Shown here: piece by piece, positions 3,199 through 51,363 of the stretch
How the letters are laid out: every line of letters starts with the position of its first letter
Numbering within the stretch: the stretch's first letter is position 1
Source: Bacteroidaceae bacterium
GTDB taxonomy: Bacteria; Bacteroidota; Bacteroidia; Bacteroidales; Bacteroidaceae
DNA length: 64,000 nt
Direction: 5' to 3'
Assembly (NCBI GenBank): GCA_017615835.1
Contig: JAFZZI010000002.1
Coordinates: forward strand, 41,319 to 105,318
The notes under the pieces: generated by a model
The model's input: the letters and a program-made list of their open reading frames with translations, nothing else
What the model was told of the DNA's origin: nothing
Databases searched by the model: none
Translations under genes and position numbers: made by a program

Positions 3199-4296
3199 AT
3201 GACACAAACCAAGAAAAAAGAACTTGTAACCCTTAATGAAAAGCCACTCAAAAGCGGCGGCAGCTCCCTGTATCTCAACTACACCATTGATGGAGTAAGA
3301 CACAAAGAATACCTGCACATGTACATCGTGGTACCCAAGACCAAGTTAGAGCGTCTGCAAAATGAGGAAACCATGAAAACCGCGCTGGCCCTCAAAGCCA
3401 AACGCATACTGGAGTTGCAGAACGGCCAGGCTGGATTTGACCGCCAAAAGCATAAAGACATGCTGCTCACGGATTATCTGCTCCAGCGCATAGACTACTA
3501 CAACCAGCGCAACAGCAAGAGCTACCGCCAACATTTGGAAAAGATAGTACGCTGGCTTAACAACTGGGGCGGTCGCATGACACTTAAGGGAGCCGACAAA
3601 CAACAGATAATAAGCTGGTGCAAGTTCATGAAAGACGGAGGTCTGGCTGACACCACCATACGCGGTTACTTTGAGACACTGGGCAGCCAGTTCCGAGCAG
3701 CGGTACGTGATGAGCTTATTGACGTAAATCCGTTTGACCGCATGGATAAGACCGAAAAGCCTGAGCGTGTGGAAGTGGAGCGTGAATACCTTACCATGGA
3801 TGAACTACGTAAACTCAGCCGTACTAAGATACAAAGTGACCAGGTGCGCCGAGCTTTCCTGTTCTCATGCTTTACCGGCCTACGTGTATCTGATATACGT
3901 AACCTTGACTGGGGTGATATACACAACACCGAGGTAGGCCCACAGCTCGCCATACGTCAGGTCAAGACCAAAGGACTTGTTTACCTGCCGCTGTCAAATA
4001 ACGCCATCGGCATATTACCACAGATACACCCTGACCGCGGCAAGGTGTTCCGCTTGCCGGATCAGGCAACCGTCAATGAGACCGTGCGCCACTGGGTCAA
4101 ACGAGCCAAGATACAAAAGCACATATCGTTCCATTGTGCGCGACACACCTATGCCACCTTGCTGCTCACGTCTGGAGTTGACTTATACACTGTCAGTAAG
4201 CTCATGGGACACAAGGATATAAGCGTCACTCAGATATACGCTCGCATCATAGACCAAAAGAAAGTGGATGCCGTCAATGCTATACCTCAGCTTTGA
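3199..4296 (+). CDS. int: Phage integrase, tyrosine recombinase
   Basis: A full-length 365-residue site-specific recombinase that would catalyse prophage integration and, with a directionality factor, excision. The N-terminal part holds an arm-binding region. A SAM-like core-binding domain follows at about 90-190 (DYLLQRIDYYNQRNSKSYRQ). The catalytic domain has the first arginine in FTGLRVSDIR (about 227), the conserved lysine region QVKTKG, HCARH with H312 and R315, LMGH with H338, and the nucleophile Tyr347 in TQIYARI. All catalytic residues are present. It is transcribed toward the late genes and ends three bases before the convergent gene at 4300. Palindromes just upstream are candidate attachment or operator sites. 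The small HTH protein at 61226 is a possible excisionase. Confidence 0.95.
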   Translation: MTQTKKKELVTLNEKPLKSGGSSLYLNYTIDGVRHKEYLHMYIVVPKTKLERLQNEETMKTALALKAKRILELQNGQAGFDRQKHKDMLLTDYLLQRIDYYNQRNSKSYRQHLEKIVRWLNNWGGRMTLKGADKQQIISWCKFMKDGGLADTTIRGYFETLGSQFRAAVRDELIDVNPFDRMDKTEKPERVEVEREYLTMDELRKLSRTKIQSDQVRRAFLFSCFTGLRVSDIRNLDWGDIHNTEVGPQLAIRQVKTKGLVYLPLSNNAIGILPQIHPDRGKVFRLPDQATVNETVRHWVKRAKIQKHISFHCARHTYATLLLTSGVDLYTVSKLMGHKDISVTQIYARIIDQKKVDAVNAIPQL

Positions 4297-9360: not shown

Positions 9361-12300
9361 TTACGCCTGTAAAGCCTCAATGATTGCTGCATAGTCGCTC
9401 CAGCCGCTCGCAGTCTGATATGCCGTCACGCTTGCCGCCGGCACGTATATGTGCGCAAGCGACGCGCACCTATCGAAAACACCCCAGCCGAGTGCGGGAG
9501 GTGTCAGGGCGAGGACTGTCACTGTCTGCAGGTAGGTACAGTCTTTGAATATTCTATTTTTAATAGTATGCAACGTCGAAGGAAGTGTGACGTGTTCTAG
9601 CTCCAGACATTCCAAAAAGACATCGCCTCCATTTTCAGTCTCCGAGCCCCCCAAATATTGGATAGCGCCCAGGTCAGAGACACTCTTCACTTTTGTCCCT
9701 TTGAAGGCGCTACCACCAAGCATTGTTAGGTTGGGCAGGCTAAGGCTGACATTTTCGAAGGCTAGGGTGCAGCCCTCAAACGCTCCGCTAGCGACCTCCG
9801 TCAGCGATGCCGGAAGGTTGATAGTCGTCAGCGATGTGCAGCCACTAAAAGCATTTGTACCTATGCGTGTGGCGGCCAGCGGCAATGAGACTTCTGCCAG
9901 CGATGTGCAGTTCTGGAACATCCCTCTCCTTGTGCCGGGCGAGACATCTGTTATGTTTCCGAGGCTCGCGACCTTCGTTATGCCCGACCCGTAAAAAGCG
10001 TCGGAGTAACTGTCTCCTGCATTAAGATACTGGAGAGCAGGCATGTTGACGATGCCAGTCACCTTGGTACAGCCTCGGAAGGCGCCATAACCAAGCCGTG
10101 TGACATTCGGCAGGTAGAGCCCGTTAATCTCAAGGTTAGCACAGTCAAGGAAGACGTTGCCCCCTCCATCTACTAGGTCATTGCCTATGGCCGTCAACAC
10201 TGTCCAGTCAACATTCACAGTGCGGAGGCTGGTGCAGCCGGCGAAGGTTCTCGCCCCCAGCACGCGCACGGTGCTAGGCAGCGTAGCCTCCGTGAGGTTC
10301 AGGCACCCTTCGAAGGTGCCATGACGATTGCCGGGCGAAGTATTCACCACACTGCCGAGATCCAGCACGCGCGAGATGCCTGTATTTTCAAATGCACCGG
10401 AAGTAGAGTCATCGACTCCAAGTGTTGTAAGGCTGGGTAATCGCACGTCGCCCGTCAGGCCGGTGCAGTTCCTGAAGGCCCAACGTTCTATCTGTGTGAC
10501 ATTCGGCAGATAGAGCCCGTCCATCACGAGGTTGGTGCAGCCGCTAAAAAGGCTGGCGCCGAGCAATGTAAGCGAGGAAGGAAGCTCTACGGATGTCAGG
10601 GCAGTGTTGTCCAGGAAATTATTTTCGTATATTTCGAGCAGCGAGGAAGGCAGGACGACATGTGACAAGGAGATACAGCCGTAGAAGACGTTTCGTCTTA
10701 TCACGGTTACGGACTGCGGCAGCTCTACGGAGCGCAGCGACGTGCAGCCGTTGAACGTATATTCGCCAAGTGTCGCTATGCCGGTGAAGCGTGACAGCTC
10801 GTCGAAGCTGACAAGCGACGTGTTGCCGTTGAAGAGACTGCTCAGCGTCGTGACGGCAGCGGCCTCCTCGGACGTGATGCCGCCGTCGTGGTCGGTGTCC
10901 CAGTTCGCGAGGGCCACGGCGGAGACGACGGGGTCGGCGAATCTTATCCACAACTTCGCCGCGTCGATGTGCAGGCCCTGGAAGGTGCTCTCCAGCGTGC
11001 CTATGCTGTCCTCATAGGCGGCATCCACGGTGATGTCGCCCTGTATGACGGGTACGTCCGTCTCGAGACCGTCGGCGGTGAGACCTTTGTATGTGTGGCT
11101 GTTGCCGTCCTTGTCTTTGTTGGCGGCGATGGCGGACAGCGCGTCAAGCAGCGTGCCGTTGCCCGTCCACGTGAAGTTGGTGACGCGGATGAGCTGGAGC
11201 CGCTGCCCCTCACTGTTGAAGATGGAGGCGAGCATGCTGACGGCATCGGTGGCGCCGGCATCTTCCACCTCCAGACGTACCACGCCCGCCAGCGAGGAGT
11301 ACGAGAGGTTGGTCAGTCTCTTTACAGAGCGCAGTATTATTGCGCTGATGGTGGACGGCAGAGAGAGCGTCGTTATCTTGGAGCCCTCCGGCAACGTTAT
11401 GTTGGTGACGGAGGTTCCGGCGAACAGTGCCTCGCGCAGGCGAGGACAGCCGCTCAGGTCAACGGCACTGGCCAGCGACGGCAGGTTACGCGCGTCGATG
11501 CTTTTCAGCGACGGGCAGTCGCCGATGCCCACTGACGACAGTTGCGAGGTGACCTCCAGTGCGTCTGCATCTCCAAGCTTCAGCACGCGCAGGCGCTTGC
11601 CGCTTATTGACGGTAGCGCAGCGGCGGTCGTCTTGCTGAGGTCACCTATGCTGGTGAGGTAGTCAGAAGCCACGATGTATATGTTGGTGTCGGCGCCGGC
11701 CGGCCCTGTCAGCGTCACGGGCTCGCCCGCCATGACGCGCGACGCGGCTCCGACGCGGCTATTCTGTCCTATCAGGATGGCGGGGTAGAGGTCGAAGGCC
11801 GGTGTCAGCGTGAACGTCTCGGCGGCCAGCGGTCTGTATGAGAGACGGCCCAGCGATGCGTCGGAGCTGCCGGCGGCGAACGGGCCGTAGCGGTACAACG
11901 ACATGCAGTAGAGCATGCGAAGCTCCACCCAGCGGCGCTCGGCCTCCAGATGGTCGCCCAGCGACTGCGCAAGCGGGTGTGTATCGACGGAGGCGACGTA
12001 TGCGCCGTTCTTCCACGCATCCTCGTAGGTATATTCGGCATCGTTGTTGTATGCCGTCTTGGTGAAATACCGCTGGGCCTTGCCCCAATAGTAAGCCTCG
12101 AAGAAGCCCATCAGACGCTCCATCACCGTCGTGCCGCTTCCTGCGGCGTACATCGCGCCCAGTATGTCGCGGCCCGTCTGACGGCACTCGTCGGCGCAGC
12201 ATTCGCCCACGAGCGTCCAGAAGACGCTATCCTCGCCACGGAAGACATAGCCCGTGCGTGAGTCGTCGAGGAAGTCGTGCATCTCGATGCTGTACGGCTT

Positions 12301-15300
12301 GCGGCTGTGGCCCTGGTTGTCGATGTCGAAGATGGTGTCAAGGTCGTCCTGCCGCCAGCGCCACTTGCAGCCGTTGCCGCCGAAGCAGTACGGGTAGCTG
12401 TTCTTGGCGAAGTTGTCCGTAGCCCCGAAGATCTGCAGGAACACGAGGTGGAACAGCGCGTCGCGCTTGTCCCAGTACTGTTCCCAGTTCGCGAGGAAGT
12501 CCCCGCGGCGGGCTTCGCGGAACAGCTCGTTCTTTTCCGCGGTCGTCAGCCCCTCAAGGTCGGTGGCCTGACCGCCGTAGCTGACGTACTGGTCGAGCAT
12601 GCTGACGCCACTGAACTCGTAGCGGCCTGTGCGTATGTCATGGTAGCACAGCTTGTATCGGTCGGGGCCCTCGCCGTCCAGCCAGAACTCGTAGTACTGG
12701 TACAGGCGGCCCGTCGCCGTGTCGCGCTGCGCCTCCCACGCCGCCACGTCGGCGTTAATGTCGGCGAGTGTTGAGGTGGTGCCCAATATAAGTGTGCTGT
12801 TGCGATACGCCACCTCGTAGGCCGGTTTGAAATACTGCTCCATGGCTGCTGTCACGGCATCCTCGGAGGCCGTCTTGTCGGTGTCGAGCCCGCGGAAGTT
12901 GCCAGCCTCCCACCCGGCCTCGTAGTCAGCGACACCCTTGACGACACACAGAGCCTCCTCCTCTCCGACATAGCGGACGTCACTGTTCCACGGATAGCGG
13001 AAGGTGGTGAGACGCACGCTGTGGTCCAGACCTTCCAGCGACATCAGCGTGTCGCTGAATCGCTCGTCATCCCACTTGAAAGTCGGCTTGTCGCCTTTGT
13101 CGGGGCCCACGGTGAAGAGGCCGATGAACCGGTATGAGTACAGGCCCTCGGCGCCCTCGACAGGCTCCTTGACAAAGCCGTACACAGGCTCCATGTAGAT
13201 GGCCGTGCGGCCGCCGGCCTCGTTGGGGCCCGCCACGATGTCATGAAGGTCGTTGTAGGCCGCAGTGGTGCCCATCTTGTGGCCCTGCATAGAGCTGGCC
13301 ACATTCTTTTTCGCCGTGATGCGCTTCAGTGCCGGATAGTCCGCGCCGCGGAACCGTGCAGTCTTGGAATCCGCGGGCTCGCCCCAGTCTCCGGAGGACA
13401 CGTCCCAGTAAGATACGGGGCATTTCTTTGCGTCATTGCTCTTGTCAATGCGGAAACGCAGGTTCCAGCGGTAGTAGTTCATGGATGTGGTGCCCTGTCC
13501 GGACGTCTCCACGCCGAATATCTTCAGCGAGTCCGCGGGACGGTCGTGCCAGCGGAACTCGACATTGGATTTGGTGGCATATTTCTTGTCCATACCCCAG
13601 GCGGGGAGCACCCCTTCCGGCTCGGCTATCTCTATCACCATCACGTTGGCCTCGCGGCTCACGGCATCATAGTCCACGTGCCAGCCGTCATCCACGACAG
13701 AGCGCCCTGTCGCATACGCCAGCTGCTTGTCGGCCTGCGTCGGCAGCGAGGCGACATAGTTGGCGAAGGCGTCTGCGGAGCCGAAGGCACGGTTGTAGCA
13801 GCGCACGCCGTAGAGATACAGGTCTGCGGCGGAGCTGCCCAGTACCAGCGGCGCATCTATGCTCCACACGTCGTTGTCGCCATAGGCGAACTGGCATTTT
13901 TTCGCTCCGTTGACGTATATCTGCGCAAGGTTGCCGTAATTGCCCTTGTAGTTGCGTGTCAGCGTGACGATGACGTTGACGCGCTCGCCCTCCTTGAAGG
14001 TATAGCTCTGCTCCAGGTCGCCGGAGGCGGCAGAGAGGTCGTTGCTGTGCAGCGTCACCTGCTCGGGCCTTATGCGCAGACCGCGGAAAGCTGCCGACAG
14101 GAGGTCGTCCATCACGGCTATAACAGGCTCGTCGTAGTCAGAGGCGTTGCGCACGGCGAAGGTCAGCTCGACGGTGCGGGCATTGCCCACGTCGCCCAGC
14201 AGCGGCCATGAGATGACGGGACGCGCACCTGCAGGCACGAGCAGACAGCGGCGACCCGCCTCGTCGGCAGTCCATCCGTCGGTGCCGTCCACCCACGCTA
14301 TGCCGTCCCATGTCGCGGCGATGCGGCTGCCGTCCACCTCGTTGACGGCGTAGTGCTGGCGGTTGCTGCGGTTCGCGGGATTGATGTAGAGCGTTGCGCC
14401 AGGCGTTGCGGGGTAGCTCGCGGCGTTGTCGATGGCGATGTCCGCGGCGGCGGTGTTGCCGCCATCCACCTCTATTGTCACATGTGCAGTCAGCTCGGAC
14501 GAGTCCGAGGCCACTTCCACCTGGTGTGAATACACGTGGGGTTGCGAGGTGGTCTGATTCTCTATTATGTCGTCCTCGACGATATAGGACGTCTGGCCGC
14601 CGAGACGCACGGACGCGTTGACGGTGACGGGAGCCGCCACAGCGCTCTCGCCGTCATACAGCGCATACGAGAAAATGTCGTTGGCGGCACCGTTGACGAG
14701 GCTGCCGGCAATATTGTTCATTACCGCGAGGCGTGCCGTCAGCACGTCACCGGCGGCGACGCAGATGATACTGAAGCGCACGTGCTCTGTGGCCAGTGTG
14801 TCGCTGGTCACCCACATCTCGACTGTATATATGCCGCTGCCGGTCTCGGGGAACGTCAGCGATGGATAGAAGTACTCGTTCTCGGTGTATGTCTGGGTGC
14901 CAAGATTCACTTCCACGTCAGCCGGAGTATAGCCGTCGCCGCGTACGCGGATGTGCAGCGTCTTGCTTACAGCGCCGCCGATGTTGAGCCCGCCAAGCGA
15001 GTAGGGACGGCCCTCGATGAAAGGGGCCCACCAGTTGAACCTGTCAGCGGCGAGGTACATGCTCGTCAGTGTGGCGTCATATATGGCAGAGGTCTGCTCG
15101 TGTGTCTCCGAGCCCACTGCCATCACGCGGATGCGGTTGCGGCCGTTGGCGAGCCAGCGGCGCACGTCGAAGGTGAAGGTGTCGCCGTAGCGCAGCGTCA
15201 CACCCTCCATGATGGTGTTCCATTTCCCGGCGGCGCCGGTATCGACGGCTATCTGGAGTGTCGAGTCCTCGCGTGTGTCGCTCCATTCGATGTCAGTCAC

Positions 15301-15735
15301 CGCCTTGCGCTGGCTCAGCACGCTCACGCTGACGAGAGCCTCCTGCTGCTGCACGGTGTAGTAGTACACGCCCGTGGGAGAGTCGCCCAGGATGCGGTAC
15401 TGATAGACGGTGCCCGTGAAGTTGAAGATACAGCTCGACACTATCAGGTCGCTCTGCTCCGGCTGCCCCTCATTTAGCCACTGCTGGCGGTCGGCCGCGT
15501 CGCGGAAGTTATACAGCGTGCTCGTCGCCGACACAAAGAAGGATGCGCCCGCACGGGCGTTCAGCGCCTCCTGTATCTTGAGTTTCAGAAACTGTTCTAT
15601 CTGGAGACCGCTAAAGGGCAGGCCGTCGCTCGACGGCTCGAAATGGGAAATACGGCCTCGCCCGTCAGGGGCGCAGTTGCCGTTCCAGTCCTGTTCAAAA
15701 CTCTCAAGCTCGTCTATGGTAGGTTTCTTTGCCAT
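9361..15735 (-). CDS. Giant receptor-binding-type tail protein: LamG-like, CotH-like region and BspA leucine-rich repeats
   Basis: About 2,125 residues. The start at 15735 (MAKKPTIDELESF) follows an AT-rich leader; an ATG at 15768 would add 11 residues. The N-terminal third is beta-rich. A concanavalin/LamG-like segment (about 560-680; INVIVTLTRNYKGNYGN-type strands, IYVNGAKKC) is followed at about 750-1240 by a CotH-kinase-like region, tentative, with FGATDNFAKNSYPY and the acidic RWRQDDLDTIFDIDNQG. An EF-hand-like loop, DTDHDGGITSEEA, lies at about 1606-1618. The C-terminal 500 residues are BspA-type (LRR_5) repeats such as IGTNAFSGCTSLTTINLP, as in Bacteroidales adhesins. It probably binds the host surface. 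The central part is much more GC-rich than neighbouring genes, suggesting acquisition by transfer. Confidence 0.85.
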   Translation of the reverse strand: MAKKPTIDELESFEQDWNGNCAPDGRGRISHFEPSSDGLPFSGLQIEQFLKLKIQEALNARAGASFFVSATSTLYNFRDAADRQQWLNEGQPEQSDLIVSSCIFNFTGTVYQYRILGDSPTGVYYYTVQQQEALVSVSVLSQRKAVTDIEWSDTREDSTLQIAVDTGAAGKWNTIMEGVTLRYGDTFTFDVRRWLANGRNRIRVMAVGSETHEQTSAIYDATLTSMYLAADRFNWWAPFIEGRPYSLGGLNIGGAVSKTLHIRVRGDGYTPADVEVNLGTQTYTENEYFYPSLTFPETGSGIYTVEMWVTSDTLATEHVRFSIICVAAGDVLTARLAVMNNIAGSLVNGAANDIFSYALYDGESAVAAPVTVNASVRLGGQTSYIVEDDIIENQTTSQPHVYSHQVEVASDSSELTAHVTIEVDGGNTAAADIAIDNAASYPATPGATLYINPANRSNRQHYAVNEVDGSRIAATWDGIAWVDGTDGWTADEAGRRCLLVPAGARPVISWPLLGDVGNARTVELTFAVRNASDYDEPVIAVMDDLLSAAFRGLRIRPEQVTLHSNDLSAASGDLEQSYTFKEGERVNVIVTLTRNYKGNYGNLAQIYVNGAKKCQFAYGDNDVWSIDAPLVLGSSAADLYLYGVRCYNRAFGSADAFANYVASLPTQADKQLAYATGRSVVDDGWHVDYDAVSREANVMVIEIAEPEGVLPAWGMDKKYATKSNVEFRWHDRPADSLKIFGVETSGQGTTSMNYYRWNLRFRIDKSNDAKKCPVSYWDVSSGDWGEPADSKTARFRGADYPALKRITAKKNVASSMQGHKMGTTAAYNDLHDIVAGPNEAGGRTAIYMEPVYGFVKEPVEGAEGLYSYRFIGLFTVGPDKGDKPTFKWDDERFSDTLMSLEGLDHSVRLTTFRYPWNSDVRYVGEEEALCVVKGVADYEAGWEAGNFRGLDTDKTASEDAVTAAMEQYFKPAYEVAYRNSTLILGTTSTLADINADVAAWEAQRDTATGRLYQYYEFWLDGEGPDRYKLCYHDIRTGRYEFSGVSMLDQYVSYGGQATDLEGLTTAEKNELFREARRGDFLANWEQYWDKRDALFHLVFLQIFGATDNFAKNSYPYCFGGNGCKWRWRQDDLDTIFDIDNQGHSRKPYSIEMHDFLDDSRTGYVFRGEDSVFWTLVGECCADECRQTGRDILGAMYAAGSGTTVMERLMGFFEAYYWGKAQRYFTKTAYNNDAEYTYEDAWKNGAYVASVDTHPLAQSLGDHLEAERRWVELRMLYCMSLYRYGPFAAGSSDASLGRLSYRPLAAETFTLTPAFDLYPAILIGQNSRVGAASRVMAGEPVTLTGPAGADTNIYIVASDYLTSIGDLSKTTAAALPSISGKRLRVLKLGDADALEVTSQLSSVGIGDCPSLKSIDARNLPSLASAVDLSGCPRLREALFAGTSVTNITLPEGSKITTLSLPSTISAIILRSVKRLTNLSYSSLAGVVRLEVEDAGATDAVSMLASIFNSEGQRLQLIRVTNFTWTGNGTLLDALSAIAANKDKDGNSHTYKGLTADGLETDVPVIQGDITVDAAYEDSIGTLESTFQGLHIDAAKLWIRFADPVVSAVALANWDTDHDGGITSEEAAAVTTLSSLFNGNTSLVSFDELSRFTGIATLGEYTFNGCTSLRSVELPQSVTVIRRNVFYGCISLSHVVLPSSLLEIYENNFLDNTALTSVELPSSLTLLGASLFSGCTNLVMDGLYLPNVTQIERWAFRNCTGLTGDVRLPSLTTLGVDDSTSGAFENTGISRVLDLGSVVNTSPGNRHGTFEGCLNLTEATLPSTVRVLGARTFAGCTSLRTVNVDWTVLTAIGNDLVDGGGNVFLDCANLEINGLYLPNVTRLGYGAFRGCTKVTGIVNMPALQYLNAGDSYSDAFYGSGITKVASLGNITDVSPGTRRGMFQNCTSLAEVSLPLAATRIGTNAFSGCTSLTTINLPASLTEVASGAFEGCTLAFENVSLSLPNLTMLGGSAFKGTKVKSVSDLGAIQYLGGSETENGGDVFLECLELEHVTLPSTLHTIKNRIFKDCTYLQTVTVLALTPPALGWGVFDRCASLAHIYVPAASVTAYQTASGWSDYAAIIEALQA

Positions 15736-15755
15736 GTTATATTTTTTTGTTGTTA

Positions 15756-15872
15756 CTAATGTTTCCATACATCCTCATGGCTCCAGGTGGAATCGTGAAG
15801 CCATACGCCGCCGCCGAAGCAGCTGGCCGCCGCGGACATCGCCGCCATCAGAAATCGTCTCAGACTGCTCAT
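15756..15872 (-). CDS. Very small protein (38 residues) between fibre and receptor-binding genes
   Basis: It begins at 15872 with an ATGA overlap with the stop of the fibre gene upstream and ends 20 bases before the chosen start of the giant tail protein. The sequence starts MSSLRRFLMAAMSAAASCF and ends GGGVWLHDSTWSHEDVWKH. The N-terminal part is hydrophobic with a Ser-Cys that could be a lipobox-like site, and the C-terminus is rich in Trp, His and Asp. The overlap, position and amino acid pattern suggest a real gene, perhaps a small tail or lipidated protein; function unknown. Confidence 0.6.
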   Translation of the reverse strand: MSSLRRFLMAAMSAAASCFGGGVWLHDSTWSHEDVWKH

Positions 15873-17283: not shown

Positions 17284-18075
17284 TCAGAATTTGATGTTGT
17301 CAAAATATATCTTGCTTTTCTCCGTCTGGCCGTAAATGGTCAGCACCATGCCGGTAAGCTGGTACACCACAGCGTCCAGCAGCCCGTCCGATAACAGATA
17401 ATGCGCTCCCACCTCCTGAGTGGCAGCGACATAAAGCCGCCCTTTCTCCAGCTCACACTCCGGCATGAAGGTGAACGTGTCAAACGGAAACGCGGCGTCA
17501 ACGTCTCCGTCAGTTATGTAATCGGCAAAATCAAAGCCTTCAAGGTCTCCACCGTCTGTTATGGTCTCCTTTCTCAGGCTGTAATAGATGAACCTCAGCC
17601 GTGAGCCTTGAAGGCCCACCAGCCGCGGATCATCATAGCGCCCACGCACGTAAGGGTTCAGCTGCTTACGTCCCTCGGCCGATGCCTCCGGTGTGACATC
17701 AGTCAGCACCACGGCCGAATCCAGCGCTTTAAGGCCCACCAGCCGCAGCCATGGACCTAACTTGTTTTTGTCAAGCGTGAACGACACCCACCCGTCGGGG
17801 TCTATCGTCACAGCTTCGTAGTCGCTGTTGTATGTAGGGGGGTCCGATGGTTCCTGCGCAGGCTCTTGATAAAGGCTCCTCACGTCAATACCTTGCAGCC
17901 TGTCTGCTGGCACAACCTTGTTGATGGCGTTGATAGCCTCCGGTAGCGTACGTCTGATAACATCATTCAGAGCTAAGGTCTCCGGCTGATCCAGCATAGC
18001 CTCTACGCCAGTGTCCACCTCATCCATGTTTTTACGGACCAGGCTCACCACCTCACCTACATACAACTTAATCAT
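17284..18075 (-). CDS. Probable structural protein, function unknown
   Basis: A 263-residue protein starting at ATG 18075 (MIKLYVGEVVSLVRKNMDEV); the upstream TTG at 18090 is less likely. The N-terminal third is helical, with pairs such as LALNDVIRRTLPEAINAINK, and the rest is beta-rich with DPDGWVSFTLDKNKLGPWLR and a C-terminal VLTIYGQTEKSKIYF. It overlaps the preceding gene by 8 bases and lies 5 bases before the fibre gene. The position between capsid and fibre genes suggests an adaptor, stopper or tail-tube protein; no family is recognised. Confidence 0.7.
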   Translation of the reverse strand: MIKLYVGEVVSLVRKNMDEVDTGVEAMLDQPETLALNDVIRRTLPEAINAINKVVPADRLQGIDVRSLYQEPAQEPSDPPTYNSDYEAVTIDPDGWVSFTLDKNKLGPWLRLVGLKALDSAVVLTDVTPEASAEGRKQLNPYVRGRYDDPRLVGLQGSRLRFIYYSLRKETITDGGDLEGFDFADYITDGDVDAAFPFDTFTFMPECELEKGRLYVAATQEVGAHYLLSDGLLDAVVYQLTGMVLTIYGQTEKSKIYFDNIKF

Positions 18076-18604
18076 TGTGATTATCCTCAAAATTGAAGTT
18101 GGGGAACTTAATCTTGTTGGCTATCATGAAATTCTTCATTGCGGACTTGTTCATAAGCACGCCGGCATTAGCACCGCGGGCCTTAAGAGCCACGCGAGCC
18201 TCCTCAATGGTTGTCACCTCCGGTATCACGGTCACCTCACTGTCTGACCCCTCTACGTCATTATCGGTGGCAGAGCCGTTTTCTTGAGGGTTCGGATTGA
18301 TTCCACCGGCATTGCTGTTAGCTCCGCCTGCTCTTTTGCCTTTTTTCTTGTTTTCAGCAGCGGGCTCGGCAGTCCCGATAACCTTGATAAGCCTTATTAC
18401 ACCGGCTTGGAAGAGTGAGCTTGATTCAATCATCAGCTGCTCTATCTTGTTAGCACAAGCGTATGTTGCAGGCCGATAGTTGGCACCGCGCAGATCATTG
18501 CCGCGTTTGAATGTTACCTGCATCTCGTTACGGCCGTTACCCAGCGGTATCATCATCACCGCCTCACGTTTGCCGTCAACTCCGTAAATCTTAGTTTGTG
18601 ACAT
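18068..18604 (-). CDS. Small phage structural or decoration protein
   Basis: 178 residues. The N-terminal half contains VMMIPLGNGRNEMQVTFKRG and YRPATYACANKIEQLMIESS, a compact fold. The middle is a low-complexity linker (KKKGKRAGGANSNAGGINPN). A C-terminal helix-strand unit follows (VTTIEEARVALKARGANAGV), similar to Rho N-terminal/LEM-like small motifs. It is the first gene after the capsid terminator hairpin. A head-completion or decoration role is inferred from the location. Confidence 0.68.
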   Translation of the reverse strand: MSQTKIYGVDGKREAVMMIPLGNGRNEMQVTFKRGNDLRGANYRPATYACANKIEQLMIESSSLFQAGVIRLIKVIGTAEPAAENKKKGKRAGGANSNAGGINPNPQENGSATDNDVEGSDSEVTVIPEVTTIEEARVALKARGANAGVLMNKSAMKNFMIANKIKFPNFNFEDNHND

Positions 18605-18687: not shown

Positions 18688-20409
18688 TCAGGCTACCTGG
18701 CCCACAATACCCTCAAACAGTTTCCAGTCTTCCAGGTTGTTGTCCCACTCAACAATGTCACCAGCCTTGAATCCGGCAGTGTCATCATCGGCAGTAAGGA
18801 AGTACTTCTTAAGCTTCAGGCTTGCGTCAGCTGCAATCTCCTCAGCGGTAGGCAGTTCATTTACAGGCTCAAAGGTTGCCTGGATGGAACCGATCTTAGC
18901 AGCCTTGGCGGCAGCAGCCTGTGACGGGCAGGCCAGTACGGCATTGTGCCCAAGCAAGTCAACGCAGTCAATACGGATAAGGTTGTACTCCTTAGCCTCA
19001 CGTGCCTCGCCGGTCTTGGACATGTCACGCTCCTTTCTCTCTTCTGGCTTCAAATACGGACGCTCGGCGTTCTCAAGGTCAAGCACAGCCATGTACTCGG
19101 TGTAGCCCAGGTCATCCAGTGTCTGTGACCAGATAAACTCCAGTGAGCCGAAGTTATCCTCGTACATTCTGATCTTGATACCGAACTTGTTAACCTCTAC
19201 CTTACCCACATCCTTATGCTTGATGCTGGAGTTAGCATACTTGATGATACGCTTAAGCTCCTTCTTGCCGCAGAATGCGTAAGCATGGTCGTTGGTAGCA
19301 TTGTTGGTAAACATTAGGGTGGTTATTGCCAGGAAGTCATCATCGTTCATCTCGTTACCGTGAGTGTAAAGAATAGGAATCTGACGGAGCATACCCTTCT
19401 CGTGGAACACGCTCTCACGGCCGTTGGTTGCCTTGACATCTATCTGGTCATGGAACTGCTTACCGTTCCAGTGTGAACGTGCGCACTTACGCTTGAAGTT
19501 ATCCTTGGCGTGAGTAAGAATGTTACGGGTCTTCCATGACATCTTAGTTTCACTCTCCTCAAAGCGTTCAGTCACCACAACAGTCTCAATCTTCTTCTGC
19601 AGGAAGCATTGACCGGGAGCAGGCTGGAATGATGATGACTGGACGTTCATCTGTGACTCAGAGGCTGCGGTTGCCATGCAATGGAATATTGCGGTAGGCT
19701 CGATGGTTACGGTTGTACCGCTTGCAGTGGGAGGATTCAAAACTTTGAACTTAATCTTCTCACCCTGGAAGTCGTTGTCCAGTACAAAGAGCGTAAGCTC
19801 ACCATCAGCAATCTGGTTGCCTGCCTCATCCTTAGTGTAACCCTGTACGCCTTCTATTACTACATCTGAATAGTTGATGAGTATCTCCCAGTTTTCAAGG
19901 TCTTCCTTATCTATTGATATGGTCTTGTTGTTGCTGTTATAAGTAATGGTAATGTTACTGTCGCCGGTATATACGGAATCAAGGTCTGATGAGCCGTCAA
20001 CCCAATGATTATGAACATAATCCTTAGCCTTGACAGGTTTACATACACGTGCAATGATAAGCTCCTCGGGATACTTGAACTTACGGAACTCAACCGTCTT
20101 CTCATCGTAGTCCTCAGCCATCAAACCGGCATCACGTAGGTTGGTAGCCGATGACGGCTGTCCGGGCAGCTGTGTCAGGTTACCCTGTTCATCGGGCTTG
20201 ACAGCTTCACCAGCTGGCCTGCCGCCAGGATTGCTTTCACTTACAGGTTCTATATTCTCAGATGGATTGGGGTCAGCCGCAGGCTCTACCGGTTCCACCA
20301 CTGCCATCGCAAAGCCGCTGCTGGCTCCCAGCAGAACAGCCACAACCACGAGTAGAGCTGACAGCAAACTCATTTTGTGGTTCTTCAGATAATTAAAAAT
20401 CTTCTTCAT
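18688..20409 (-). CDS. Major capsid protein with an N-terminal membrane segment
   Basis: 573 residues. The start MKKIFNYLKNHK is basic and is followed at about 13-37 by a hydrophobic stretch (LLSALLVVVAVLLGASSGFA, then MAVV), like a signal anchor. A Pro/Glu/Asn-rich linker runs to about 90. The rest resembles an SU10-type HK97-fold capsid protein, with EFRKFKYPEELIIARVCKP, GMLRQIPILYTHGNEMNDDD, FGIKIRMYEDNFGSLEFIWS and a C-terminal domain ending in NLEDWKLFEGIVGQVA. The scaffold gene is immediately upstream. The membrane segment is unusual for a capsid protein. Its small residues, ASSGFAMA, resemble rhomboid protease cleavage sites, and the phage encodes a rhomboid (21737). The membrane part is probably removed during maturation; this is inference. 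Confidence 0.82.
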   Translation of the reverse strand: MKKIFNYLKNHKMSLLSALLVVVAVLLGASSGFAMAVVEPVEPAADPNPSENIEPVSESNPGGRPAGEAVKPDEQGNLTQLPGQPSSATNLRDAGLMAEDYDEKTVEFRKFKYPEELIIARVCKPVKAKDYVHNHWVDGSSDLDSVYTGDSNITITYNSNNKTISIDKEDLENWEILINYSDVVIEGVQGYTKDEAGNQIADGELTLFVLDNDFQGEKIKFKVLNPPTASGTTVTIEPTAIFHCMATAASESQMNVQSSSFQPAPGQCFLQKKIETVVVTERFEESETKMSWKTRNILTHAKDNFKRKCARSHWNGKQFHDQIDVKATNGRESVFHEKGMLRQIPILYTHGNEMNDDDFLAITTLMFTNNATNDHAYAFCGKKELKRIIKYANSSIKHKDVGKVEVNKFGIKIRMYEDNFGSLEFIWSQTLDDLGYTEYMAVLDLENAERPYLKPEERKERDMSKTGEAREAKEYNLIRIDCVDLLGHNAVLACPSQAAAAKAAKIGSIQATFEPVNELPTAEEIAADASLKLKKYFLTADDDTAGFKAGDIVEWDNNLEDWKLFEGIVGQVA

Positions 20410-20429
20410 AGTTGTATTGAAAAAAGTTA

Positions 20430-21206
20430 TTACACTATTTCATCCCAAGGATTATATGGCTTTGGAGGCTCAGGCTTGGGCATGCTGCCGCCACGACCAC
20501 CGTTAATTGACGGCATTGTACTGCCGCTTGCTGTGCCGCGTGTCCTGCGGCTTGCCTCAATACGCTCGTTACGTCCGGCCACCAGACCCTCGTTACGTGC
20601 AGCCTGCACGTCATCCTTGTAGCGTATTCCTTGCCATACGGTCTCCATATCAGACTCGTCATACTGATTGACATTACCTTTTTGCTTAATGTCTATCAGG
20701 CGTACCGCGATAGAGGCTTTTTCTTCGTTACTCAAGTTGTGTTCGTCGCCCCACGTGTTCAAACGCTCCAGGAAGTCGTCCCAATTATGCTCCTCCTCCT
20801 CTTGAAGTCTTTTACTTTCACTTACACGTTCACGATAGTTATCCCAGTTCTTTTTAAAGCGTTCACGGCCCTCCTCGGTTGCTACCTCTGCCATTTCTTC
20901 TCCAAATGCCTCAATCAATCCTGGCCTTGGGTCACCAGTCTCTATCCAGACATTGAGGAACGTAGCAGCTTTAGGATCGCTGTACAACAATTGTGCAAGT
21001 TTCTTGTTTACTTCAGCGTTCTCTGCAATCTGTGATGCGTCCGCATCCATCATCTCATTGATAGCCTCATCCAGGTCGGCCAATTGTCCGTCTTGTCCTT
21101 CCTGTCCTTCTGGTCTCACAAACTGGCGGTCGGGGAACCGTCCCTGCGCTCTTTCCAGCAGTCTCTCCCTTGCGGTCTTAACTTGCTCTTTATCAGGTTT
21201 TGCCAT
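20430..21206 (-). CDS. Probable capsid scaffold protein
   Basis: 258 residues, strongly charged and helical, with coiled-coil runs such as KKNWDNYRERVSESKRLQEEEEHNWDDFLE (key features: alternating acidic and basic heptads). An acidic N-terminal part contains DLDEAINEMMDADAS, and the C-terminus is Gly/Pro-rich and basic (SINGGRGGSMPKPEPPKPYN). Location 20 bases upstream of the capsid gene, size and composition match phage scaffolds. It is the first gene of a leftward transcript that starts at the phage promoter at 21239-21281. Confidence 0.75.
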   Translation of the reverse strand: MAKPDKEQVKTARERLLERAQGRFPDRQFVRPEGQEGQDGQLADLDEAINEMMDADASQIAENAEVNKKLAQLLYSDPKAATFLNVWIETGDPRPGLIEAFGEEMAEVATEEGRERFKKNWDNYRERVSESKRLQEEEEHNWDDFLERLNTWGDEHNLSNEEKASIAVRLIDIKQKGNVNQYDESDMETVWQGIRYKDDVQAARNEGLVAGRNERIEASRRTRGTASGSTMPSINGGRGGSMPKPEPPKPYNPWDEIV

Positions 21207-21238
21207 TGCTTTATGATTGTATGTTTCTTTCTTGCTAC

Positions 21239-21281
21239 CAAAAGTAACGCAGACCGCAAAGTGGGGTAGTCTATCTTAGCC
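21239..21281 (-). promoter_or_regulatory. Phage promoter module for the scaffold-capsid operon
   Basis: On the minus strand GGCTAAGATAGAC (21281-21269), then 22 bases, then TACTTTTG (21246-21239), a perfect TAnnTTTG -7 box. The start codon is 33 bases further on. GTGGGG and CCCCAC flank the upstream box and can form a hairpin. The same box and spacing occur at 27893, 51364 and 53477. Confidence 0.75.
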
Positions 21282-21326
21282 CCACACAATTTGTAACTTC
21301 AATGCAGCAGACAATCAATTAAGGCA

Positions 21327-21740
21327 TTGAAAGATACAGAGCTCAAACGTCAGCGGGACCGTGACCTCTACAAGGTCTATGTGCGCTCACTCAGTACTGG
21401 TCATTTCGCCAGTATCGGTGAAGCTGCCGACCACGCTCGCCGCCAACCTGCACCACAATGGTATATCTCCGCACGGACCGCCAGCCTGCTTATCGGCCGT
21501 ATCATGACCCACCAGTCGCTCATCAACCTCAACAGCAACTCACGTCAGCGTATATGGTATCTCTATGACGCATACCGCGATTATCTCAAAGCCCACCCGG
21601 GCTGCACGCTCTCACGTGAGCTCATACTGGAGCAGCTGGTAGAACAGCCGGCACCGCATTTCTTTGTGTCAGCCGGCCGAGCCAAACATATAATCATCTA
21701 TGAACGCCGCGCTGCTATCAGGCGCATGAGGAGACAATGA
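21327..21740 (+). CDS. Small basic protein in the packaging operon (candidate small terminase)
   Basis: 137 residues from a TTG start at 21327; no in-frame ATG follows the upstream stop. It is rich in Arg, Ala and His, with two similar segments (QPAPQWYISARTASLLIGRI and EQPAPHFFVSAGRAKHIIIY), so it appears internally duplicated. Each half looks like a helix-turn-helix-sized helical unit. It is the first gene before the rhomboid and large terminase genes, overlapping the rhomboid gene as ATGA. DNA recognition for packaging would fit, but the family is not recognised and the role is inferred. Confidence 0.72.
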   Translation: MKDTELKRQRDRDLYKVYVRSLSTGHFASIGEAADHARRQPAPQWYISARTASLLIGRIMTHQSLINLNSNSRQRIWYLYDAYRDYLKAHPGCTLSRELILEQLVEQPAPHFFVSAGRAKHIIIYERRAAIRRMRRQ

Positions 21741-22198
21741 GAGTAATTATAATCATAATATGCAGCATCCTGTTACTTACAGGCGTGCCTCAGTGGCTTA
21801 CCGATACACACTGGCCGCTGCTCTGTGCCATGCTCTATCCGTTTTTCCACGCCAACCTCTTTCACCTGTCCGTCAACATGATTGCCGTCTGGCCGCTATA
21901 CGCACCCCAGCGTAAGAACAAAGGTCTGCTGCTGCTTGCCAGCTGGCTCATATCGTGTCTTGTATGGCCGCTGGCACCGCATCCGGTAGTAGGTATCAGC
22001 AACCTGCTGTATGCCAGCATTGGCTGTCTCTCTCCGGTACTGCGCCCAGGCTACTGGCGCTCACCGGCTGTCATTACGTTCTACGTCATGACCTTTGCCA
22101 TGGTATTCCTGCCTTTCGTGGCAGGCTGGTCCCATATAGCAGCGCTCGCGCTCGGCATTGTCGTATCACTCATCCGAACCAAGACCCATGGCACGTAA
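21737..22198 (+). CDS. Rhomboid-family intramembrane serine protease
   Basis: 153 residues with about six membrane segments: 3-17, 27-37, 43-55, 63-80, 84-101 with 108-127, and 130-147. Catalytic residues align with E. coli GlpG. HLSVN (H43, N47) corresponds to HILFN, the oxyanion motif. GISNLLYASIG (S88, Y92, G96) corresponds to GLSGVVYALMG, with the nucleophile serine. SHIAALALG (H133) corresponds to AHIAGLAVG, with the catalytic histidine. All essential residues are intact, so it should cleave membrane helices. It overlaps the small gene upstream (ATGA) and the terminase downstream (11 bases), which places it in the morphogenesis operon. The major capsid protein begins with a membrane segment and is a plausible substrate. 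Confidence 0.92.
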   Translation: MRVIIIIICSILLLTGVPQWLTDTHWPLLCAMLYPFFHANLFHLSVNMIAVWPLYAPQRKNKGLLLLASWLISCLVWPLAPHPVVGISNLLYASIGCLSPVLRPGYWRSPAVITFYVMTFAMVFLPFVAGWSHIAALALGIVVSLIRTKTHGT

Positions 22199-24353
22199 AA
22201 ACACTGACACAGCGCAGCAGCACCTCGATATGACACAAGAGGAGTTAATTGCTGTCCTTGACATAGTTGCCGAGAACCAGCGCCGCTGTGCCACGTACGC
22301 TGCCATCTATGACCCTATCACCGGACAAGGCCTCTCTGAGCTGATGGATGAGGAGCGCAGCCAGCTCCGCATACCGGACTTTGCCGTACCTGTCCAGTAC
22401 GTACCCAAACGTATGATGAAAGTAAAGCTCATACGTAACATAGTACGTGCTGGCGGCATACAGAAATTCATTGACCGCCACAAGTGGAAGTCCGATGACA
22501 TACCAACCTTTCAGGAAATAGAAGATGAGCTGCGCCGCATACGTCATAAGTATGACTTCTGCAACTGGGCCTATGAGTGTATATGGATAGATTTCAAGCT
22601 GGGAGGCAGCGGCCGTTTCCGTCTCAACTACGCCCAGCTACAGGTGCTCAAGCTATGTATGATACTCCTTTGGGCCAAAGTACCCATCAACATAGTCATA
22701 GCCAAGGCGCGTCAGTGGGGTGGTTCAACCTTCTGTATCTTCTTCCAGTTCTGGCTGCTTGCTCATCATGATCCGTATCACTCCTTTGCTGTGGCAGCCC
22801 ACGTACAGGACGCAGCACATAACGTGCTTAACATGCTGGTCAAGGCGCTGGAGAAATACCCGGCCTGGGACCTCGGCCTGCCACATGCTGAGCAGCTGCA
22901 TCTGGGCAACTACGGAGGTAACAAACACGGTTTTCAGATAAAAGACAGCGCAGGTAACGCAGTACTGCCAGGTATCATTTATATAGGCTCAGCAGAGCGC
23001 CCTGAGTCACTGCGTTCAGGCCGTATATCAGGAGCCCACTACACCGAGGTAGGTGTATGGCCCGACACTCCAGGCAAGAGCGCAGCCGGACTGGTAGCCG
23101 ACATCAGCGGTGGTATTCCCAAACAGCAGCCGCTGGCCATGCAGGTCTATGAATCCACCGCCAAGACCTCCGATGATTTCTTTCATGACATCTTCTACGA
23201 TGCGCTGGACGGCAAGAGTAACTTTCATCCGCTGTTCATACCGTTCTATTACATACCGCATGACACCATGCCCATACCTGATGAGACGGAGTTTGCCCTG
23301 TGGCTGTATCGTAACCGTAACAACGAGACACGTGAAGGTAAATGGCGCAGCACCGGCCGTTACTACTGGTGGCTGTGGACCGAGGGTGCCACGCTCCAGG
23401 CAATACAATGGTACCGATATGAGGAGTTCAGTTTCACGCGCCGCTCCGAGATGGTCAATGAGGCACCGGCCAGCATCGCCGAGGCGTTCCAGTCATCAGG
23501 TAAAAAGGTCTTTGACTTCTATGATGTAGAGTGGTTCATGAAACACACACATGAACCTCAGTGGGAAGGTGACCTCATCAGTGACGGCACACGTGGGGCC
23601 GATGTACTTAAGAACATACGTTTCATAAGCCGTGACGGCGGCCATCTTAAGATATATGAAAAGCCGGACCCCACACCCATACTCAACCGCTACGTGGTAG
23701 CCGTAGATATCGGTGGACCCAATGAGACCAGTGACTATTCATCCGTCCGTGTCATGGACCGTCTTATGATGATGCCTGAGTTCGGTACCGGTGGCCGTCC
23801 TGCCATCGTGGCTGAGATGCACTATCATACCGATGATGACCTGCTGGCTTATGACGCAATGCGTCTGGCCGCCTGGTATAACAACGCCCTGCTGGTGGTA
23901 GAGAGTAACACCTATGAGAGCCGTGACCAGAACCGCGACACCGGAGTGGAGGGGTTTGAGTATATCATGGACGCTGTGGCCGAGCTGTATGGTGAGCGTA
24001 ACCTATATGCACGTCATAACAAAGAGGAGGACGTGGATGAGAAGGTAGAACGTAAATGGGGCTTCAACACCAATATACGTACCAAGCCTCTTATCATCAA
24101 CCACATGCGCACCTGTTTGCGTGACCGCCTGTGGGATGAGCCCAGCAAGACCTGCTGTCAGGAGATGTCCATATACATAGAGGACAAAAAGAAACTCACC
24201 GCACCACCCAAGAAACATGATGACGTACTTATGGCTACGGCCATACTCCTCTGGATCGCTTACAAGGAAATGGAGTTGCCGCAGCTTGTCAGGGAACCCG
24301 CCAGCACCGATGACGGCCGTCCACGCAGCAGCAATAACCTCACCGCATTCTAA
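22188..24353 (+). CDS. terL: Terminase large subunit
   Basis: 721 residues from ATG 22188 (MARKNTDTAQQH), overlapping the rhomboid gene by 11 bases. An upstream in-frame ATG at 22158 is inside the rhomboid gene. The N-terminal ATPase has a Walker A-like KARQWGGST at about 172-180, preceded by INIVIA. The C-terminal RuvC-like nuclease has RYVVAVDIGGPNETSDYSSV (first aspartate about residue 507) and PPKKHDDVLMAT with the HDD motif at about 676. This is the packaging motor that cuts and translocates phage DNA. The portal gene is nearby but on the opposite strand, separated by a convergent terminator. Confidence 0.93.
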   Translation: MARKNTDTAQQHLDMTQEELIAVLDIVAENQRRCATYAAIYDPITGQGLSELMDEERSQLRIPDFAVPVQYVPKRMMKVKLIRNIVRAGGIQKFIDRHKWKSDDIPTFQEIEDELRRIRHKYDFCNWAYECIWIDFKLGGSGRFRLNYAQLQVLKLCMILLWAKVPINIVIAKARQWGGSTFCIFFQFWLLAHHDPYHSFAVAAHVQDAAHNVLNMLVKALEKYPAWDLGLPHAEQLHLGNYGGNKHGFQIKDSAGNAVLPGIIYIGSAERPESLRSGRISGAHYTEVGVWPDTPGKSAAGLVADISGGIPKQQPLAMQVYESTAKTSDDFFHDIFYDALDGKSNFHPLFIPFYYIPHDTMPIPDETEFALWLYRNRNNETREGKWRSTGRYYWWLWTEGATLQAIQWYRYEEFSFTRRSEMVNEAPASIAEAFQSSGKKVFDFYDVEWFMKHTHEPQWEGDLISDGTRGADVLKNIRFISRDGGHLKIYEKPDPTPILNRYVVAVDIGGPNETSDYSSVRVMDRLMMMPEFGTGGRPAIVAEMHYHTDDDLLAYDAMRLAAWYNNALLVVESNTYESRDQNRDTGVEGFEYIMDAVAELYGERNLYARHNKEEDVDEKVERKWGFNTNIRTKPLIINHMRTCLRDRLWDEPSKTCCQEMSIYIEDKKKLTAPPKKHDDVLMATAILLWIAYKEMELPQLVREPASTDDGRPRSSNNLTAF

Positions 24354-24855: not shown

Positions 24856-26781
24856 TTATTGGGCAGGAACAGGCGCAGGGACAGCCTCCTGCTGGCGTGC
24901 GTCACGATATTGTTTCAGTTTCTGCATCCACGGCCGTTTGCTTATCAAAGCATATTCGTCAAACGTAATGAGACCGAGCTTCAACATCTCCTTTGCATCC
25001 TGCTCGGCAATCTCACGGAATGCCGGTGTCTCGGCACTCTCCTGTATAGTCAGGTCACAATGTATGTAACGCAAATCATCCAGGTTAAGCGTAGCCATAT
25101 CAAACTCACCGTCCAGCTGGCCTACAATCATCTCCCAGCGCTTGCGGTCATAGAAATACAGCAGGTTCTGCATCTTCTTGGTATGCTGCAGCTCCAGGAA
25201 CTTATGGAACTTAAGCAGGAACGCAGCCACCGTAGTGGTGCTGTTACTTGCCATCTGTGCATACAACGTACCGCTGGCACCGGCAAACGGAGTCTTACCC
25301 TGCAGCGCATCCGTGATAGCCGTTGACTTGTCACTCATACCTGAGAACGTCTGCAAGAATCCGCTTAGGTCAAAGTTCACCGCATTGCTGTGGAATGACT
25401 TTGGCATCAGATTCTCCATGCCAGGCTTCACATCCACAAACACCAGTCCGCCTATCTCCGTCCAGCTCTTTGCAAATTCTTTCGGATCAATACCCTGAAC
25501 TATCTGCTTAGGCACAACCGTCACACCCTTAACCTGAGCGCGCAGCAGCCAGTCATGCAGCACAATGGCACGGTTCATGATGATATTATGGTCAATTACC
25601 GGATACAGGAAACCCTGTATCTTACCGTCAATCATCGGTATGGTACGTACTATGAACGGATGGTTACGTCCGGGCAGCGTGCTCTCACCCTCCCACAGAA
25701 TCGTGCCGTCAGGAGCTATGAACCTGCAATACCAGAACTCATCAATAAAGAAACCGTCCTCACCATATCCGTCACCGGTGATATATGGTATTTCATCTTC
25801 GCGCCAGCGCTCAGTGGAACTCTCTGCAATAGCACGGCGGTGCTGGTTCTCCTGCTTTATACGCTTACGCTCAGCATAATCATCAGCGTCAATGATAATT
25901 TCTACACCCTTGTTCCAGTCTTGCAGCCTGATACGCGGCTTGGTCTCCTTGGTCCATGCCTCCAGTATCACGCAAACTGACGGGTCTTCATCTTTCATCC
26001 ACTCCAGTACTCCGTCCTTGTAACGGTCCATCGGTGTGTCAAAACGTGCCTTGCTTTTAAGTGGCTCATACTGCTCAGGGAAAATAGAACGCAGCACGGC
26101 ATAGTCATCAGCGTTACGTGCAAAGGTGGCGGCCAGCTTACCAAAGCTGCATTTAATCATACGGCCAAACATGGTAGCGTCCCACATGCGGCTGTCGCTC
26201 ATCATGCAGTCCATCACAAACAAGTTCGGGTTCACGTAACTGGACCAGCTGTCAAACGTGCCGTCCGGACCGCTGGTGCTATCCCATGTCTCATAGCCTA
26301 CCATCAGGCCACCCAGACACAGCTCGCGCCCCCAGTCCAGATACAGCTCGTTCATGGAGTTTTTCTTGCAGTTTACCTGCAGTCCCTTACTCACAATCTC
26401 ACCGAACGCCTGCTCATCGGCATCTATGGCAGTAGCCTGCGGTTCCAACATCTCACGTGTAATCACGCCAATCATGGTCTCCACCTTTTCCTGCACCTGG
26501 TTGCTTTGTACTACGATGTTACCGGTGCTCTGCAGATACTGGCGCATGGTCATGATTTTGCCGTCGTACTCCATCAGGTCACCCCACTGGTCATCATAAG
26601 CAAAACGAAATGCCCTGCCTCGCTGCTCGCGGTAAGGCTGCATGTTCAGCCACAGGTTGCGGAACTGCTCCAGTAGTGCCATATCACGTTTACTGCGCTC
26701 AATGGCTTTCTTCCGTACGCGCACGCTATCCATCTCGCTAACGGATTTCACTCTGCGGTATAGTCTGTCAGGCTTCTGCAT
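24856..26781 (-). CDS. Portal protein
   Basis: 641 residues, the length typical of portals of podovirus-like phages. A long N-terminal basic helical segment leads to a central region with VQSNQVQEKVETMIGVITRE, PNLFVMDCMMSDSRMWDATM and EIWYCRFIAPDGTIL-like strands, then IMNRAIVLHDWLLRAQ and a C-terminal helical region ending in Gln/Pro/Ala repeats. It forms the dodecameric ring at the capsid vertex through which DNA is packaged. The context (adjacent terminase, downstream of structural genes) supports this call. The hairpin 33 bases upstream of its start separates it from the preceding transcript. Confidence 0.85.
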   Translation of the reverse strand: MQKPDRLYRRVKSVSEMDSVRVRKKAIERSKRDMALLEQFRNLWLNMQPYREQRGRAFRFAYDDQWGDLMEYDGKIMTMRQYLQSTGNIVVQSNQVQEKVETMIGVITREMLEPQATAIDADEQAFGEIVSKGLQVNCKKNSMNELYLDWGRELCLGGLMVGYETWDSTSGPDGTFDSWSSYVNPNLFVMDCMMSDSRMWDATMFGRMIKCSFGKLAATFARNADDYAVLRSIFPEQYEPLKSKARFDTPMDRYKDGVLEWMKDEDPSVCVILEAWTKETKPRIRLQDWNKGVEIIIDADDYAERKRIKQENQHRRAIAESSTERWREDEIPYITGDGYGEDGFFIDEFWYCRFIAPDGTILWEGESTLPGRNHPFIVRTIPMIDGKIQGFLYPVIDHNIIMNRAIVLHDWLLRAQVKGVTVVPKQIVQGIDPKEFAKSWTEIGGLVFVDVKPGMENLMPKSFHSNAVNFDLSGFLQTFSGMSDKSTAITDALQGKTPFAGASGTLYAQMASNSTTTVAAFLLKFHKFLELQHTKKMQNLLYFYDRKRWEMIVGQLDGEFDMATLNLDDLRYIHCDLTIQESAETPAFREIAEQDAKEMLKLGLITFDEYALISKRPWMQKLKQYRDARQQEAVPAPVPAQ

Positions 26782-51333: not shown

Positions 51334-51363
51334 TGTATTGTATTTTAAGTTTATAAACCACCC

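Follow-up and report, generated by a model that had tools for sequence, protein, structure and literature searches.

The prohead maturation proteases of tailed phages, for example HK97 gp4 and T4 gp21, are soluble enzymes located inside the prohead, and the core protein of hepatitis C virus is matured by host signal peptide peptidase, an aspartyl intramembrane enzyme. For most rhomboids we know of no assigned substrate. According to the part of the report consulted, rhombosortase is a dedicated bacterial rhomboid with a near-perfect co-distribution with a short hydrophobic signal, GlyGly-CTERM (PMC3237569). A 2011 review, in the section available, states that, T4 aside, no phage had been shown to have its proheads associated with the membrane during assembly (PMC3185693). 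Here we describe a prophage in a 64,000-nucleotide stretch of Bacteroidaceae bacterium DNA (assembly GCA_017615835.1, contig JAFZZI010000002.1, positions 41,319 to 105,318; the whole stretch, which is the final 64 kb of its contig, is called the window) that encodes a rhomboid and a major capsid protein with a hydrophobic start. From comparisons of sequence, we consider it probable that the phage encodes this rhomboid as a dedicated protease to process the leader on its own major capsid protein. The capsid precursor would carry at its N-terminus a basic and hydrophobic leader, which would insert into, or dock on, the inner membrane; the rhomboid would cut near the end of the hydrophobic helix, the freed capsid protein would begin in a flexible linker, and release from the membrane may time or place head assembly.

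A rhomboid and a capsid protein with a putative leader

The two partners occupy the following positions:

21737..22198, + strand: rhomboid intramembrane serine protease, 153 amino acids (PF01694, invariant columns, GlpG-like model)
20302..20409, − strand: predicted capsid leader, codons 1–36 (sequence and the leader pattern in relatives)
18688..20301, − strand: remainder of the major capsid protein, with a flexible linker to about residue 109 and then an HK97-like shell domain

The rhomboid open reading frame (ORF) matches the Pfam family Rhomboid at 33 bits (cut-off 22.6) and no other Pfam family, and a profile search against the PDB gave a weak match to GlpG (E = 0.0071). Its AlphaFold model has a mean predicted local distance difference test score of 79; in a Foldseek search with this model GlpG occupied 22 of the 23 top rows, the remaining row being iRhom1 with ADAM17, and all 23 rows were weak (E = 0.0033–0.15, none ≤0.001; TM-score by query 0.53–0.71). 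By sequence, the catalytic set, comprising the serine and histidine and the HxxxN oxyanion motif, is complete, and in an alignment of 32 of the 35 distinct phage rhomboids listed, the sole invariant columns are H38, H43, N47, G86, S88, and H133. Domain, catalytic residues, and modelled GlpG-like fold place the protein among the rhomboid intramembrane proteases, and the intact GlpG-like catalytic set claimed in a first-pass annotation of the same DNA is borne out by the PF01694 match and the invariant residues. Invariance confined to catalytic residues speaks for proteolysis. Prohead protease families were absent among the scanned window proteins, which cover part of the window ORFs. The idea that phages carry a rhomboid since their hosts have none, prompted by the window's own genome (82% complete), which shows no second rhomboid, was rejected, as a rhomboid away from the phage was present in 44 of 44 genomes, one of the same genus included.

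The capsid ORF (18688–20409, − strand; 573 amino acids) matches Pfam SU10_MCP at 37.9 bits (cut-off 24.1), and in a fold search its model resembles the capsid proteins of VP1, phicrAss001, SU10, and HK97; on these grounds we assign it as an HK97-fold major capsid protein. Its N-terminus reads MKKIFNYLKNHKMSLLSALLVVVAVLLGASSGFAMAVVEP, with basic residues to about position 12 and a hydrophobic stretch from 13 to about 36 that terminates in GASSGFAMA. The model contains helices at residues 2–10 and 12–26, followed by mostly low-confidence chain from residue 28 to about 109. The window capsid is only 22% identical to that of the phage BKO1-TP3, yet their leaders align, and a leader-type start recurs in relatives with 15–23% overall identity. 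Pooled over eight pairs, the ratio of nonsynonymous to synonymous substitution rates was 0.14 in the leader, indicating purifying selection, and 0.048 in the core. The basic-then-hydrophobic start noted in the first-pass annotation is thus real and shared by distant relatives.

Small residues occupy every fourth position of the leader (A24, G28, G32, and A36 in the window), a pattern found in 76 of 98 relatives and known from helix-packing motifs. This spacing, together with the modelled separate helix on a flexible linker and a predicted topology that is awkward for membrane insertion (see below), would fit a leader that packs inside the procapsid as a scaffold-like helix, outside the membrane, with the rhomboid serving as a chaperone or extractor that does not cut. 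The restriction of invariance to catalytic residues argues against such a role, which we regard as very unlikely.

Phage rhomboids co-occur with capsid leaders

Searches with tblastn against annotated phages, using the window capsid and the rhomboid each, returned no match, and neither did a viral scan with the capsid only; the terminase was therefore taken as bait. The best 80 of 382 loci from a terminase-baited viral scan were added to loci from genomes, and two further scans covered the best 80 of 137 loci found with the core of the Bacteroides-type ("type A") capsid as bait and the best 80 of 372 loci from named genomes, the latter adding a Prevotellaceae lineage in which the rhomboid is distant from the capsid gene. 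Loci of the three scans overlap. The survey represents phages related by terminase or capsid, and a locus counts as lacking a rhomboid when the fetched stretch shows none; only in the genomes searched whole (sets of 30 and 48) does the statement extend further. The hydrophobicity cut for a leader was 1.6 in the terminase-baited and capsid-core scans and 1.4 in the type-A count, where it was lowered after the values had been seen.

The terminase set of 152 rows was reduced to 124 at 95% identity, and in 35 of the 124, among them 3 with a rhomboid, the capsid was unreadable. The 89 readable loci comprised 28 with rhomboid and leader, 0 with rhomboid only, 27 with leader only, and 34 with neither (39, 0, 29, and 40, respectively, before redundancy reduction), so that the capsid carried a leader in 28 of 28 rhomboid loci. 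In the capsid-core scan, both features were present in 75/75 loci with both regions readable; 5 of the 80 loci were unclassed, and one (L272) was leaderless by rule despite a visible hydrophobic stretch. When 30 Prevotellaceae genomes were searched whole with a phage-rhomboid profile, a strong match appeared in 16/16 genomes with a hydrophobic capsid start (E ≤ 2e-31) and in 0/14 without one, two of these 14 giving weak rhomboid hits (3.5e-5 and 9.4e-5) in 327-residue frames on other contigs. Twelve contigs were read more widely: all seven leader-bearing contigs hold a small ORF and the rhomboid 14–22 kb from the capsid gene, and all five leaderless contigs retain the small ORF, a scaffold-like gene, the terminase, and the capsid and have no rhomboid. 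Among 140 readable type-A capsids, 126 had both features, 14 had neither, and none was discordant (97 and 13 after reduction); this count dropped edge-cut capsids, those under 380 amino acids, unreadable rhomboid regions, and, by hand, L319 (a short frame), and it leaves out, as unreadable in the rhomboid region, eight leader-bearing loci from genomes without a phage-type rhomboid that are taken up below. The 28/28 and 126/126 sets overlap. Both parts are present in a prophage of Phocaeicola massiliensis DSM 17679. For four type-A capsids (L278, L285, L300, and L328) the assembly is given as Bacillota, Clostridia, Staphylococcus, or Clostridium, labels that look doubtful because the other hosts are Bacteroidales.

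Capsid type and rhomboid switch together

The genes that lie between or beside the two partners are as follows:

20430..21206, − strand: scaffold-like gene between capsid and rhomboid (phrog_22323; named from position and make-up)
21327..21740, + strand: small ORF directly 5' of the rhomboid (phrog_27246), from its position possibly the small terminase
22188..24353, + strand: large terminase (phrog_2 terminase large subunit, E = 3e-16), whose start lies within the 3' end of the rhomboid gene
24856..26781, − strand: portal protein, P22-like (PF16510 at 48 bits, phrog_156)

The rhomboid ATG overlaps the stop of the preceding 137-residue ORF, and its 3' end overlaps the terminase ATG at 22188, in agreement with the translational coupling to the large terminase that had been claimed. 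In 161/161 loci that have both, the small ORF is the immediate 5' neighbor of the rhomboid and shares its strand (131 adjacent by the script's cut-off and 30 with longer overlaps of stop-to-stop frames; the 161 include repeats of the same contigs). The order capsid, scaffold-like gene, small ORF, rhomboid, terminase, together with the capsid leader, is also found in three temperate Bacteroides phages in GenBank, BKO1-TP3, BS-TP4, and BF1-TP2. The BKO1-TP3 rhomboid is annotated there as a glycoside hydrolase, and GenBank calls the terminases of three surveyed loci (L034, PQ571269, 11499–14124; L035; L036) tail spike protein.

On a terminase tree of 72 rows, which leaves out 17 rows of the genus g21, there are 13 changes of rhomboid state and 12 of leader state, and of seven supported independent pairs 6–7 agree and none disagree (p = 0.016–0.031). 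On the capsid tree, built without the leader columns and without three short capsids, only two rhomboid changes and three leader changes occur, which does not suffice for a test. The tree of the scaffold-like gene has 9 rhomboid changes, with a mean of 4.7 of 5 supported pairs in agreement, and that of the small ORF has 10, with a mean of 2.4 of 3; no pair is against in either, and neither result is significant. Within type A, both traits change six times at the same places, and 4/4 supported pairs agree (p = 0.125). Since the rhomboid changes only 2 times on the capsid tree and 9–10 times on the trees of the intervening genes, capsid type and rhomboid switch jointly while the genes between them stay; the rhomboid tracks the capsid type, and not the terminase, the scaffold-like gene, or the small ORF. 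Two swap pairs illustrate this pattern: L137 and L138 share 86% identity in the terminase, 63% in the portal, 63% in the scaffold-like gene, and 59% in the small ORF and only 25% in the capsid; for L153 and L091 the values are 75, 75, 57, and 56% and only 29% in the capsid. The capsids of L309, which has leader and rhomboid, and of L316, which has neither, are 90% identical.

We weighed whether shared ancestry or linkage could account for the association with no functional tie. The association lies mostly deep on the capsid tree, with its two changes, as such an account would have it; the two traits, however, switch jointly where the terminase, scaffold, and small-ORF backgrounds do not, and they are lost jointly within one capsid type, with the genes up to 22 kb apart, which makes it extremely improbable. 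Pure physical linkage is rejected on the swaps with unchanged intervening genes and on the joint losses with genes 14–22 kb apart. A tie between the phage rhomboid and the capsid leader is therefore strongly supported by the co-evolution seen in these sequence comparisons, and the link between rhomboid and capsid start that the first-pass annotation had put forward has held in one direction: at the readable loci surveyed the rhomboid is never found without the leader, and the two are gained or lost jointly on the terminase tree and in Prevotellaceae.

The rhomboid might instead target another protein, of host or phage, with an indirect link to the capsid through the head module. Rhomboids can have many substrates, and the gene directly downstream of the capsid likewise diverges with it in some swaps; its window representative (18068–18604, − strand) has no family match and is a possible capsid partner. 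The scaffold, the small ORF, and the portal correlate with the rhomboid at |phi| ≤0.24 over 57 loci, and in the L309/L316 comparison the rhomboid is lost with the leader alone. Taken together, we judge another target unlikely. Six other ORF clusters exceed |phi| 0.4 with the rhomboid (0.74, −0.56, 0.48, 0.47, 0.44, and −0.42; further small clusters reach 0.34) and are taken, from position only, as shadow ORFs, since they overlie the capsid gene or fall within the terminase.

Predicted cut site

The L309 capsid reads GADAGMLMAAATPLPEAGKT, and the leaderless L316 capsid starts MSTTSSPLPDAGITN. Among the 14 leaderless capsids, five start at most 10 residues upstream of LP(D/E)AG, near the predicted mature end, two more start beside DAG, and the other seven have different short starts. 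When 95 distinct leaders were anchored on LPDAG, the prevailing residues were G at −13 (77 leaders), G at −9 (80), V at −8 (76), M at −6 (72), A at −5 (85), and A at −3 (88). The published rhomboid motif has a small P1, a large hydrophobic P4, and a hydrophobic P2' (PMC2941825), and P4 at −8, P1 at −5, and P2' at −3 fit this rule. In the window these are F33, A36, and V38, which upholds the rhomboid-like small-residue motif that had been noticed at the leader end. A lenient P4/P1 set (A and T allowed at P4) fits 91/98 leaders, with P2' mostly A (88/95). From this pattern the predicted cut would most likely follow the last residue of (V/F)-x-M-A, which in the window is A36.

Observations that weigh against rhomboid processing

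Several findings count against rhomboid processing of the leader as the whole account. Leaders without a phage rhomboid occur at 27/89 readable loci, i.e., in 27 of the 55 leader-bearing non-redundant loci, and in eight further genomes (L346, L348–L354) that have no phage-type rhomboid in a whole-genome search; the leader-only lineages are genus g21, L182, L184, L188, and L346–L354 (L347 without a readable start). The co-occurrence that the first-pass annotation proposed to check in related phages is accordingly one-sided: a rhomboid without a leader was never seen, and separate lineages commonly have the leader and no phage rhomboid. Cellular rhomboids, signal peptidase, or no cut at all could apply in these lineages. 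Prevotellaceae leaders are weakly hydrophobic, 10 of 16 falling under the 1.6 cut (leaderless capsids reach at most 0.56), and none of the independent-pair tests on the scaffold, small-ORF, and capsid trees is significant alone. The leader has a net charge of +3.1 before the helix and −1.2 after it, which predicts an N-in/C-out orientation; the shell domain would then come to lie outside the cytoplasm, an awkward location for a shell protein that packages DNA in the cytoplasm. The motif lies at the C-terminal end of the helix, and not at the N-terminal end of an N-out helix as in TatA. Partial insertion or insertion-coupled cutting could resolve the conflict.

The g21 genomes (L038, L040–L073; many species) encode a related capsid with a leader of the form NPLFVLLSLVA..., followed by LAAVxVVP, and no phage rhomboid. 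Most hold one related element per genome, which may point to a common prophage or to domestication of the element.

The same leader end also suits host signal peptidase, named in the first-pass annotation as the alternative at the AMA of the window. Signal peptidase I would cut at AxA, and the phage rhomboid would clear or trim the leftover hydrophobic peptides in the membrane. An AxA-compatible site is conserved in 88/98 leaders, the signal-peptidase residues at −5 and −3 being present in 91 and 88 of 98 (lenient residue sets throughout) and alanine itself in 85/95 and 88/95; the charge pattern resembles that of signal peptides, and the leader lineages without a phage rhomboid are in line with this reading. 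An argument that the frequent M, F, or Y two positions before the MA alanine rules out signal peptidase was dropped, as A-x-A is conserved in the next register. Against this alternative, the joint loss of leader and rhomboid is left unexplained unless clearing is needed, and exporting the shell protein would not serve assembly. We hold signal peptidase cleavage to be fairly unlikely, and processing by the phage rhomboid remains the reading that we favor.

Other genes of the prophage

The prophage carries an integrase at 3199–4296. A single open frame of 6134 codons (30894–49298, − strand) with LPD38, RadC-like JAB, and nucleotidyltransferase domains encodes a giant polyvalent protein, and the BKO1-TP3 gene at the matching position is annotated as DarB-like. 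A protein of 2135 amino acids (9361–15768, − strand) that combines leucine-rich repeats of the BspA type with a laminin-G-like stretch is possibly a receptor-binding protein. The product of 50740–51366 (− strand; 208 amino acids) shows a sub-threshold likeness to T7 gp14 (17.7 bits, cut-off 27), which fits a short-tailed phage.

Comparison with known systems

If the proposed pairing is true, a phage rhomboid gains a natural substrate, and phages of gut and rumen have a shell protein that crosses, or docks on, the membrane. As a broader and more tentative suggestion, for which we would claim somewhat less than an even chance, a group of temperate Bacteroidales phages may tether an HK97-type head to the inner membrane by its shell protein, and a phage intramembrane protease may sever this tether as maturation, which would be a head maturation route beside soluble prohead proteases and scaffold exit.

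In searches of the literature on rhomboid or intramembrane proteases with phages or capsids, judged from titles and the starts of abstracts, no description of this pairing was found. A 2025 rhomboid review (PMC12615303) contains, by term search, no word beginning with phage, virus, or viral, and a term search in the available part of the phicrAss001 structure paper (PMC10172136) found no such leader on its capsid. The Stenotrophomonas phages DLP3 and DLP5 share with the window a rhomboid gene in a tailed phage (PMC7326821, PMC5834331); compared by description only, their rhomboids are given amid hypothetical proteins, with no capsid link stated in the part of the report consulted (PMC7326821).

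The nearest precedents are the prohead proteases, the rhombosortase pairing, and the hepatitis C core protein. As with the prohead proteases, an enzyme of the phage itself would trim the capsid protein at its N-terminus; those enzymes act on a soluble domain, whereas here the protease is membrane-embedded and the leader hydrophobic. Hepatitis C core likewise offers an intramembrane protease that matures a capsid protein, as predicted here, but that enzyme is an aspartyl protease of the host acting on a C-terminal signal in an RNA virus, and here a phage-encoded serine enzyme would act on an HK97-fold shell protein. In the consulted part of its description, Providencia AarA removes a short N-terminal extension from TatA at a motif with a small P1 and a hydrophobic P4; TatA has a periplasmic N-terminus, in contrast to the predicted N-in leader of the capsid, and the same text discusses one type II rhomboid substrate, Star (PMC2941825). 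In distribution there is a likeness to rhombosortase, whose gene, in the sections of the report seen, is adjacent to that of its signal in some genomes and apart in others, as here, although its signal is C-terminal on secreted bacterial proteins and the leader described here is N-terminal on a virus shell protein (PMC3237569). The dedicated pairing of a rhomboid with a substrate is thus already known as a kind, and what would be new is its use in head maturation.

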